Below are positions 14,805 through 18,492 of a stretch of DNA of 56,272 nt, one piece after another. Both the position numbers and the translations under genes were made by a program. Positions within the stretch are counted from its first letter, which is position 1. Each line of letters begins with the position of its first letter. Below the pieces are notes generated by a model. The model had not been told where the DNA came from and made no database searches. It saw nothing but the letters and a program-made list of their open reading frames with translations. Source of the stretch: a virus; the IMG/VR virus record IMGVR_UViG_3300037300_000108, positions 1 through 56,272 of that record; one strand, given 5' to 3'.

Positions 14805-17342
14805 TTAATAAAATGCGTGTTTGCGGCGAAAACTGATAGGTTCGTCGCGTTCGTCGGATTCTAGTCTTAAGAACCCACCTTGTCGAAACCGGGTAACAGC
14901 CATCACTGCTGTGTCAACCAAGTCATCGTGTGCTGCGTTAGGGAATGCTGCCATCTGGTCAATTACTTCATTCGCCCATCTCGTATCTGGAGCCCATACT
15001 TTTCCACCTTGGAAAATTGGCGCCACGGTATTGAGCCTTGCAATTTTATCGTTGGATTGCTGCCTAGTACCCCTGGTAGGCGTGTACCCGCGTACAAATA
15101 TATCAGACTGTTGGTTTAACTCTTGAATCAAAGAGGCTCCAGCCGCTTTGGCTTCCACGATACAGTCATCGGGCTTCCACTCCAAATAGTGCTGTCTGGC
15201 TTTTTCCTTCAACTCAGGAAACTCCATCCGCTTTTGAAAGGCGTCTAGCAAAATAATATTTGCGTCGTTTTCATCTTCATTCAAATAAAAAACCCCCCAC
15301 GTCGTGCAAGCCGAATAGTCGGAGCGCTCGTTCTTTGTAAACGCAGTATCCCACGACTGGATGATGAAATGACACTTTGGAGGATCTGGCCTATCCCAAG
15401 TCTTCCACCAATCCCTTTTAACAATAGCGCCTTCTTCGCCAGTTGGGCTTTGTTGATACTGCGCATTCCATTTACTCGCCGGAAGCTCTTCTTTCAGAGC
15501 CATTAGCTCTTCTGTAGACCAAAATTCAGGCCATAGGGAATTACCCGAAGGCAGGATAGCCGGTAGCTCTACAACGTCCCACTCGTCGGCTCTACCCCGT
15601 TCCTGTGAATCCCGAATCACCCTGCCAATAAGATCCGTCTCCGCCCAGCGTGTCGCGATTATGACTATCGCCCCGTTTGGCTGAAGTCGCTGACGAGGAC
15701 CTGATGTGTACCACTCATAAGCCTTATCGTAGATCTTGGGATCAAACGCGGCCATAGTGGCTTCACCCTCAGTGTGAGGGTCGTCAATAATGACAATATC
15801 CGCACCTCGACCCGTCATAGTTCCACCTACACCAATGGCGAAATACTCACCACTCTTATTAGTAGCCCAGCGACCCGCTGCCTTGGAGTCTTGCCGCAGC
15901 TTTACATCGGGGAACACCTCGGCGTACTGGTCACTCATTACCAAGTTACGAACCTTACGGCCAAAGCTGACAGCTAGCTCGCCAGTGTTAGACGCCTGCA
16001 TTACTTTCTTCTCAGGATACTTGCCAAGAAACCAAGCGGGAAACATAAAAGACCCAAATTCCGATTTGGTGTTATGAGTACAAATATAACCGTCTCCAGC
16101 CAAGAACAAACCATCTTCTCGGTCAACCTTGATACATTGCGTGTCGCCAGTTTCAATCAGCTTTTGAATTTGAATATAACGCCCAAACCGTCTTTCGTTT
16201 TTTAAAGTCCTGCATTCTTTTCTTGGCAGGGTAAAAACATTATTTGCATAAAAAGACAACTTCCAAGACGGGCCGTATGACTTATTTCCAATCTTTGCTT
16301 CTGATTCAAGAATGCTGGCTTTAATTCCAAGACTTCTTACAAGCTCAGCCGCTTGCTCAATAAATTTTTTGTTACTTTGGGCAAAAAAGCACTGCCCCTT
16401 CTTTGAGATGTTTCCATCTGTATCCATTAACCCCTTAAGCAAATCACGCCTTTGCTGCGAAGAAGCCTCAAGATAACTCCGAGGTATGTGCTTATCACAC
16501 AAAACTCCAAGATCTCGTAGCTGCACTTTTAACTTAAGCACACCAAAAGTAAATCTTGTCGCTTGGTCGGTAGTTGCATAGCCACGTTTTTCTATTTCTG
16601 CCCGCGTGTAAATTGCATCGTCGTCGTGACAGGTAATCACGCCATTGTTTTTTGAGCCATCTCCAAGCCAGACTCCAAGAACGTACGGGTCAATTGGTAA
16701 TTTTTTTTCTTTGTACTCAACAGCCAATACAGACGGAAGCATTGGAGCCCTAAAATCTGTACTCTTGCCTTTGAAAAACTTTTGCTTTCCTTTTGGCATT
16801 ACCCTAACTACCCATCCCTCTTGTCTTAGCCACAAGTCTTCGGTTGTGTAATCTCTCCAGTTTTTAACCTTTCGATCAAGCCGAACCGTCCAAAGATGCT
16901 CACCATCAACAACAAGTGAAGCGCCATCGTCTGTTGTTACTTTGTAAAGCTCTTGATCCTTAAAGACGGTTGATTTTCCAATAACCTTAACTGGCTTTCC
17001 ATTTGGGCCAAATACAAAGTCGCCTTCACGAATATCCGCCATTGTTACCATGCCACGCAAAGTGGGTATTTTCATACTTGTCATTATTGCATGACGCGGT
17101 GGCAAGGAGATAGCCAAGCGTTTTATTTTTCCACTGGCTACGTCCTCAAACTTCTTTGCCAAGACTGCATGATGCCGTCCATGAATAAACCCCGGCCACA
17201 TCTTTTTTACAAATGTCAAAAAGTTACCTTGGCACTTTTCCCTCTCTATCGCCTGCTTGTACTCATCCAACTGAGCCAATAGCCTAGTCTGGTCTCCCGC
17301 AGGAAGGGTCTCTAGTAACTGGCTTATCTTGTCAAACTTCAC
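14805..17342 (-). CDS. terL: Terminase large subunit containing an intein (845 aa precursor)
   Basis: The ATPase/nuclease that packages DNA into the procapsid. After removing the intein (residues 85-424) the protein is 505 aa. Walker A is PPRH|TKSE (intein between H84 and T425), Walker B IVIIDDP at 516-522, and motif III IIATRW at 561-566. The RNase H-like nuclease has D665, E730 and D806/D807/D810. The start is GTG, overlapping the upstream TGA as GTGA. Until the intein is spliced out the P-loop is interrupted, so ATPase activity should depend on splicing. Confidence 0.95.
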   Translation of the reverse strand: MKFDKISQLLETLPAGDQTRLLAQLDEYKQAIEREKCQGNFLTFVKKMWPGFIHGRHHAVLAKKFEDVASGKIKRLAISLPPRHAIMTSMKIPTLRGMVTMADIREGDFVFGPNGKPVKVIGKSTVFKDQELYKVTTDDGASLVVDGEHLWTVRLDRKVKNWRDYTTEDLWLRQEGWVVRVMPKGKQKFFKGKSTDFRAPMLPSVLAVEYKEKKLPIDPYVLGVWLGDGSKNNGVITCHDDDAIYTRAEIEKRGYATTDQATRFTFGVLKLKVQLRDLGVLCDKHIPRSYLEASSQQRRDLLKGLMDTDGNISKKGQCFFAQSNKKFIEQAAELVRSLGIKASILESEAKIGNKSYGPSWKLSFYANNVFTLPRKECRTLKNERRFGRYIQIQKLIETGDTQCIKVDREDGLFLAGDGYICTHNTKSEFGSFMFPAWFLGKYPEKKVMQASNTGELAVSFGRKVRNLVMSDQYAEVFPDVKLRQDSKAAGRWATNKSGEYFAIGVGGTMTGRGADIVIIDDPHTEGEATMAAFDPKIYDKAYEWYTSGPRQRLQPNGAIVIIATRWAETDLIGRVIRDSQERGRADEWDVVELPAILPSGNSLWPEFWSTEELMALKEELPASKWNAQYQQSPTGEEGAIVKRDWWKTWDRPDPPKCHFIIQSWDTAFTKNERSDYSACTTWGVFYLNEDENDANIILLDAFQKRMEFPELKEKARQHYLEWKPDDCIVEAKAAGASLIQELNQQSDIFVRGYTPTRGTRQQSNDKIARLNTVAPIFQGGKVWAPDTRWANEVIDQMAAFPNAAHDDLVDTAVMAVTRFRQGGFLRLESDERDEPISFRRKHAFY
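16071..17090 (-). other. Class 3 intein with DOD (LAGLIDADG) homing endonuclease, 340 aa
   Basis: Precursor residues 85-424. The first residue is Ala, not Cys or Ser. The block B sequence DGEHLWTV provides H149 and W151, block F QCIKVD provides C403, and the end THN|T provides T422. Together W, C and T are the diagnostic triad of class 3 inteins, in which the internal Cys forms the branch. Endonuclease blocks are LGVWLGDG (residues 222-229) and LLKGLMDTDG (301-310), the two DOD motifs, both with acidic residues intact. The insertion point is the Walker A loop of the terminase, a site known for terminase inteins. Confidence 0.92.
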
Positions 17343-17695
17343 TGCAAGTTCCTAAATTTCAAATATACAGGCCGCACAGTCCGCTTTCCAAACGCTAAGT
17401 ACTTTACCACTCCCAAAGCAACAAGCCGGTCCACGATACGCTTGGTGTTTCCTTTGCCCGCTCTCCCCCTCATGTGAGCAATATCTTCTAAAGACGGGGC
17501 ATAGCTGTACTTTTTCCAGAACTCATCTATGGCCAAAAAAACCTCACTTTGACTGGCGGTCATTGGTATCTCCTTACACTGCTCTTCTGATAGATCGCGA
17601 CTACTGGCAATCATTTTTCGATTGATTAAAACTATCCGGCCATTTTTATATTTTTCAGAATATTTCCACCGGGGGGTAGGCTTAGATTCGGACAT
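17339..17695 (-). CDS. LexA-type winged-helix DNA-binding protein (118 aa)
   Basis: Residues ~45-110 (MTASQSEVFLAIDEFWKKYS, then YAPSLEDIAHMRGRAGKGNT, RIVDRLVALGVVKYL, GKRTVRPVYL) follow the LexA N-terminal pattern. That is, LTxxQxEVLxxI..., xPSxxDIA, a recognition helix and a beta wing ending R-x-V. The peptidase domain is absent. It lies between the two terminase genes and overlaps terL. It could be an autoregulator of the late operon or a DNA-recognition partner in packaging; which is not clear. Confidence 0.7.
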   Translation of the reverse strand: MSESKPTPRWKYSEKYKNGRIVLINRKMIASSRDLSEEQCKEIPMTASQSEVFLAIDEFWKKYSYAPSLEDIAHMRGRAGKGNTKRIVDRLVALGVVKYLAFGKRTVRPVYLKFRNLQ

Positions 17696-17706: not shown

Positions 17707-18492
17707 CTATTTATCGAAGGAATATAGGGGGTCGTTTGAGTGAGATAGTATGATATATCCAGAGGGTACCTCGTCAGCCAGCTTGCCTCCTGCCCCTACT
17801 GTACCCCCCTCACCCCCCTTCAATTCATAGTTATCCACAGCAGGATCAGAGTTATCCACTGGCATTAATGCCACTCCGCCATCATTTACTGGCAGTTCTG
17901 CCACTCGATCACCTGGCACTGGCATTAATGCCACGTCATCCACGGCGTTTAGCTCGTCCAGCAAGCTGATCGCGTCTATGTCTTGGGCATTGTCACCGCC
18001 CAGCATGAGCGCTCGAATCTCATCCATCACTTTGGTGCGAGCATCCTCGCTGGACCGAATCGTCCGCACCTCTTTGCGCTCGGTGAAAGCTGCCACCTCG
18101 GTCACGGTGCCCAGCACTTTGACCGCCTGGACGCGCACTGCTGCTTTAGTATCAGGATCGAGCAGCGTTTGCACCAGGGTTTGTATCACTAAAGCTCTTA
18201 ATTGTGCTGGCGTTTGCATTGATTGCGCATACTCTGCCAGCTTCAGCGCCTCGATCTCTGCCTTGATTCGTGGGTTCCGCGCCAGCTCATACGGGTGGTG
18301 CACCAGTGAATGCTTACTTTTGACATCGTACGCGCTGCGATAAGCATCCGCCTTGGTCGCTCCCCTTGCTACTTCACGTGCAAATTTTTTTTGCTTGTAA
18401 GTTAGCTCTTTGGATGCGCCACGACCGAGCAAAGAGTCCAAGGGCATGGACTCGACTGCTTCGGCTAGTTTTGCCCTACTTAATTTAATCAT
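17707..18492 (-). CDS. terS: Terminase small subunit (261 aa)
   Basis: The helix-turn-helix LTYKQKKFAREVARGATKAD (residues ~30-49) and following RSAY, and RNPRIKAEIEALK, match the DNA-recognition domain of terminase small subunits. A helical oligomerisation region follows to about 165. The C-terminal ~90 residues are a Val/Asp/Pro-rich tail that carries three copies of the genome palindrome, read as VALMPV, VAELPV and VALMPV, and a VDN repeat made by two DnaA-box-like sequences. It has AGGGG 8 nt before the ATG and opens the late operon. Confidence 0.8.
   Translation of the reverse strand: MIKLSRAKLAEAVESMPLDSLLGRGASKELTYKQKKFAREVARGATKADAYRSAYDVKSKHSLVHHPYELARNPRIKAEIEALKLAEYAQSMQTPAQLRALVIQTLVQTLLDPDTKAAVRVQAVKVLGTVTEVAAFTERKEVRTIRSSEDARTKVMDEIRALMLGGDNAQDIDAISLLDELNAVDDVALMPVPGDRVAELPVNDGGVALMPVDNSDPAVDNYELKGGEGGTVGAGGKLADEVPSGYIILSHSNDPLYSFDK
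17831..17860. promoter_or_regulatory. DnaA box pair (TTATCCACA and TTATCCACT)
   Basis: TTATCCACA at 17831-17839 is a perfect high-affinity DnaA box; TTATCCACT at 17852-17860 differs in the last base and abuts a palindrome copy. Both lie inside the terS 3-prime coding region. Two other perfect boxes occur at 20970-20978 and 55199-55207. Chance alone would give about 0.4 in this window, so enrichment is modest. Confidence 0.35.
17860..17933. repeat. Cluster of three TGGCA-N4-TGCCA palindromes
   Basis: Copies at 17860-17873 (TTAA centre), 17890-17903 (GTTC) and 17920-17933 (TTAA) are spaced 30 bp start to start, about three helical turns. They would face the same side of the DNA. All read VAxxP in the TerS tail. 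Confidence 0.85.

Follow-up and report, generated by a model that had tools for sequence, protein, structure and literature searches.

The large terminase (TerL) gene of an uncultured phage carries an insertion inside its ATPase motif, which raises the questions of what kind of element this insertion represents and whether it moves between terminase genes. The window analysed spans one entire virus record of IMG/VR, 56,272 bases long. The insertion is almost certainly a class 3 intein that interrupts Walker A of a phage large terminase as a mobile element, predicted to splice out of the protein and to home by means of its endonuclease.

Host gene and site of insertion

The following features were assigned to the locus; boundaries of the splicing domain's N-terminal part and of the endonuclease domain are approximate.

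14805..17342, minus strand: TerL precursor ORF with intein, 845 amino acids, GTG start (Terminase_6C, TIGR01630, phrog_38)
17091..17342, minus strand: N-extein, residues 1-84, last residues PPRH (first half of Walker A)
16071..17090, minus strand: class 3 intein, 340 amino acids, A85-N424
16749..17090, minus strand: splicing domain, N-terminal part, approximately intein residues 1-114, blocks A and B, Ala1 in place of Cys/Ser
16890..16898, minus strand: His65-Leu66-Trp67, block B His (B:10) and class 3 Trp (B:12)
16191..16748, minus strand: LAGLIDADG homing endonuclease domain, approximately intein residues 115-300
16656..16679, minus strand: first LAGLIDADG motif (block C) LGVWLGDG, intein residues 138-145, with Asp144
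16413..16442, minus strand: second LAGLIDADG motif (block E) LLKGLMDTDG, intein residues 217-226, with Asp225
16071..16190, minus strand: splicing domain, C-terminal part, approximately intein residues 301-340, blocks F and G
16134..16136, minus strand: Cys319 (F:4), predicted initiating nucleophile
16071..16079, minus strand: Thr338 (G:5), His339 and Asn340, followed by Thr+1
14805..16070, minus strand: C-extein, residues 425-845 and stop, first residues TKSE (Walker A lysine K426), with the remaining ATPase and the nuclease domain

Residues 1-84 and 425-845 together constitute a phage large terminase (matches to Terminase_6C, TIGR01630 and phrog_38) with Walker A ATPase and RNase H-like nuclease domain. 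The initial annotation had placed an intein at 16071-17090 on the minus strand, which proved exact and corresponds to residues 85-424 of the ORF; the Ala start and THN|T end that it had read from the sequence were found as described, i.e. Ala as first residue, T-H-N as last residues and Thr at position +1. The proposed splitting of Walker A also stands, as the intein lies between H84 and T425 and divides the sequence PPRH|TKSE. Taking out A85-N424 exactly restores PPRHTKSE as present in empty homologues, and the intein ends are fixed because such intein-free homologues read through the junction. Their existence, for which a search had been suggested, is evident from TerL relatives retrieved with the C-extein alone: where the contig extends to the insertion site, nearly all possess an uninterrupted [P/A/G]PRH-[T/S]KS, and the isolates DSL-LC04 and HTVC023P likewise have a continuous Walker A motif. 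When IMG/VR was scanned with a degenerate DNA pattern for empty sites, at least 120 stretches were found, and 120 of the 120 listed encode PRHTKSEF in a frame; the counts of empty and filled sites (at least 120 versus 52) cover one Ser codon family only. Since Walker A is split by the intein, it follows that the ATPase activity of TerL should require splicing.

A short contig (L033, 1-4254), which starts downstream of the insertion site, is 99% identical to the C-extein of the window TerL, hence a near-identical phage exists. Just upstream of terL, at 17339-17695 and 17707-18492 (minus strand), there is a weak match (E 0.008) to a small protein resembling LexA-type winged helices, and a candidate small terminase subunit whose Terminase_2 match (E 0.067) stays below cut-off.

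Class 3 signature and endonuclease

The defining residues of class 3 inteins are Trp at B:12, Cys at F:4 and Thr at G:5, and a nucleophile at position 1 is not required (PMC5222942, PMC7664689). The window intein displays A1, H65, W67, C319, T338, H339, N340 and T+1, the triplet being encoded by the codons 16892-16890 (W67), 16136-16134 (C319) and 16079-16077 (T338). Position 1 is occupied by Ala rather than Cys, Ser or Thr, the three signature residues align with those of MchDnaB1 and MsmDnaB1, and the block B His (H65), the terminal H339-N340 and Thr+1 are all in place. When solved structures were searched with phmmer and with profiles, class 3 DnaB inteins ranked first, with H65/W67 and C319/T338 sharing columns with H65/W67 and C124/T143 of MchDnaB1. 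Within an alignment of 63 sequences, H65 and W67 are invariant, while C319 and T338 are conserved to at least 90%.

An AlphaFold model based on this alignment reached a pLDDT of 94.3 and a pTM of 0.91; it replaced a poor first model from a 12-sequence alignment (pLDDT 68). Foldseek matched PI-SceI across most of the model length (TMq ~0.7) and, for the splicing domain, the class 3 inteins 6bs8, 6rix and 6riy (6bs8_C, TMt 0.83; 6rix_A, TMt 0.80). A HINT splicing fold is thus confidently predicted. The class 3 signature claimed initially is therefore sustained by sequence profile and fold comparison, with W67, C319 and T338 at B:12, F:4 and G:5: the profile search, named beforehand as a possible refutation, returned class 3 and neither class 1 nor class 2, and the structure prediction agrees with class 3 DnaB inteins and PI-SceI. 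Assignment to class 1 was rejected for lack of a Cys/Ser nucleophile at position 1 (Ala1), and both class 1 and class 2 for the presence of the triplet and for best matches to class 3 structures. A class 2 intein, in which the +1 residue attacks the N-terminal junction directly, likewise dispenses with a residue-1 nucleophile and would be compatible with Ala1, which has no nucleophilic side chain. It is nevertheless very improbable, considering that the class 3 triplet is complete and does not vary at the site, that the closest solved inteins are of class 3, and that Thr at +1 is usual in class 3 (PMC5222942).

Both DOD endonuclease motifs, originally judged to look intact, are indeed complete (LGVWLGDG and LLKGLMDTDG), each containing its catalytic Asp (D144 and D225). 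Pfam search with the intein alone matched LAGLIDADG_3 (E 3.9e-9) and Hom_end (E 3.3e-5), both above cut-off. A frameshifted or broken endonuclease was dismissed, as the frame is open and both motifs are intact. The endonuclease is under purifying selection in near relatives: dN/dS of this region amounts to ~0.1 in close pairs (0.055/0.548 for L011/L183; 0.017/0.158 for L005/L006), the same as for the splicing region; the nearest relative of the window itself is saturated at synonymous sites. D225 is lost (D to Y) in one of 40 inteins at the same site, and the endonucleases of this same-site family are presumably active.

From characterised class 3 inteins, we infer the chemical steps, the splicing itself, the cleavage specificity and the precedence of splicing over packaging. 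The TerL precursor would be translated in one piece. Cys319, aided by His65, Trp67 and Thr338, would then attack the H84-A85 bond and take up the N-extein as a branched thioester, from where the acyl group would move on to Thr+1. Cyclisation of Asn340 would release the intein, and joining of the exteins as PPRH-TKSE would restore the ATPase. In turn, terL alleles that lack the intein would be cut by the LAGLIDADG endonuclease at the codons of the P-loop, and the intein would be copied in as the cut gene is repaired.

Same-site family and spread between terminase genes

Protein-guided scans of IMG/VR retrieved 39 further inteins at the identical peptide bond (n=40 with the window); E values down to 1e-162 exclude chance. 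A1, H65, W67, C319, T338, H339, N340 and D144 are kept in all 40. A scan for the filled C-terminal junction (THN|TKSEF) detected 52 stretches on contigs partly shared with the protein-guided set. Complete inteins are present in 43 of these, all located at the H|T bond and all (43/43) with block B Trp, block F Cys and THN. Their first residue is Ala (25), Arg (13), Asp (3), Lys (1) or Cys (1), a variation which the class 3 mechanism allows.

Several members and relatives deserve separate mention. Thirteen loci (within L342-L389, e.g., L342, L343 and L344) harbour same-site class 3 inteins of 323-326 amino acids, which start with Arg (others with Asp or Lys) and represent a second sub-lineage at the H|T bond. 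The same-site class 3 intein of L202 (4001-5023) is followed by Cys at +1 (THN|CKS), a residue known there by 2016 in the Bvi IcmO intein only (PMC5222942). A diverged relative, L204, starts with Pro and ends with A-T-L-N instead of T-H-N; with the penultimate His lost, its splicing appears doubtful or altered. Six TerL precursors of ~1,130-1,190 amino acids (L005, L014, L169, L177, L189 and L194) contain, besides the class 3 P-loop intein, a second intein-like insert with Cys1 start, the sites being the Walker B region, the MTRW motif, the HDD nuclease region and GEYFA|CGVG. In L215 (4001-4414), a class 3-type intein without endonuclease resides near Walker B (IIDDPH|...THN|SEQ), and the P-loop site is empty. 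A scan of bacterial genomes detected distant inteins only (at most 35% identity in the best segment) and no cellular copy of the same-site family.

On the TerL tree, intein presence requires at least seven changes, an approximate figure from a quick tree with long branches and a sampling partly chosen by intein presence. Close to the window, filled TerLs (window, L168) are mixed with empty ones (L026, L028 and L029), and most near TerLs are without intein. The inteins are often more alike than their own exteins (70 versus 52% identity for L003, 56 versus 26% for L202 and 55 versus 36% for L201), the same intein occurring in TerLs just 26-36% identical. Moreover, the inteins of L201 and L203 nest with those of L007 and L008 (98/88), whereas the corresponding TerLs are far apart, and G+C content differs between intein (41.6%) and extein (49.0%). 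The patchy presence, the intermingling of filled and empty TerLs, the incongruence of inteins and exteins including transfer to distant TerLs, and the G+C difference fit spread of the intein by homing.

Two other accounts accept the intein and question its mobility or its role. It could be degenerate, still splicing with an endonuclease that no longer cuts, and be inherited or spread by recombination only. Decay does happen in the intein family, as the D225 loss in one same-site relative and the missing penultimate His of L204 demonstrate; in the window intein, however, the frame is intact throughout and the two motifs keep their catalytic Asp, the model is confident, and the low endonuclease-region dN/dS in near relatives argues in the same direction, rendering degeneration unlikely. 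Alternatively, the intein might be kept as a conditional switch, with signal-responsive splicing timing DNA packaging. The intein occupies the ATPase centre of the motor that packages DNA, which would suit such a function; mycobacterial DnaB inteins are described as splicing in response to stress (PMC6195587), and for the TerL inteins of cyanophage Mic1 a role in control has been suggested (PMC7156551). Yet simple homing is already consistent with the patchy presence, with transfer between distant TerLs and with an endonuclease that is maintained, and most near TerLs do without the intein, so that a switch is rated somewhat less probable still than degeneration.

Relation to known inteins

The closest solved counterparts of the mobile class 3 intein are the mycobacterial DnaB1 inteins (MsmDnaB1, 6bs8; MchDnaB1, 6rix/6riy), which share triplet columns, HINT fold and THN end (~34% identity across the first part) but were solved as constructs of 125-146 amino acids without endonuclease and reside in DnaB. 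PI-SceI, the yeast VMA1 intein and best whole-length fold match, has the same architecture, with a LAGLIDADG endonuclease of two motifs interrupting the splicing domain; it differs in class (class 1), host protein (yeast) and sequence (15-18% identity).

Phage TerL is a preferred host of inteins, and those of class 3 have been recorded there before, including in the P-loop. Among the mycobacteriophage inteins TerL1-a to -e, which mark the TerL ATPase domain as an intein hot spot, TerL1-a and -b are located in the P-loop, and TerL1-c and -e were grouped with class 3 DnaB-b inteins (PMC5050341). Unlike in the window, the class 3 sites of TerL1-c and -e lie outside the P-loop, and P-loop site a is K|T (PMC5050341). 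Inteins with class 3 residues also interrupt the terminase Walker A of Clavibacter phage CMP1, Synechococcus phage B23 and Streptomyces plasmid pCQ4 (33-37% identity); endonucleases are present at B23- and CMP1-type lengths, as in the window, but all three sit at GK|S/T, two residues downstream of H|TKS. By tblastn, relatives of the window intein were found in 750 of 50,697 isolate phage records, many in TerL, for which reason the remark in the initial annotation that class 3 inteins are much less common than class 1 may mislead for phages.

All P-loop inteins of known elements whose junctions were compared sit at K|S/T, and not all are of class 3 (B23, CMP1, AV108, pCQ4, ViaConlectus, CcrColossus, CcrPW, Porphyromonas 005b and Bacteroides BF486P1). 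The H|TKS site, two residues upstream, occurs among the junctions compared only in the metagenomic same-site family and is likely new, judged from part of the 750 isolate-phage records. The chances are even that H|TKS in this TerL family constitutes a hot spot not described before and occupied by class 3 inteins exclusively, in keeping with the 43 complete inteins of the junction scan, which all share the class 3 residues but differ at residue 1, and with the rare Cys+1 of L202. If so, it would amount to a natural experiment in which class 3 splicing is seen to free position 1, in an element that homes across TerLs as little as ~26% identical.

The present family adds, from uncultured phages, class 3 inteins that share one site and whose endonucleases are presumably active, and offers natural material on the tolerance of class 3 inteins for almost any first residue and on endonuclease homing into an essential ATPase. 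It fits the published proposal, cited in PMC5050341 and PMC7664689, that class 3 inteins spread through phages.
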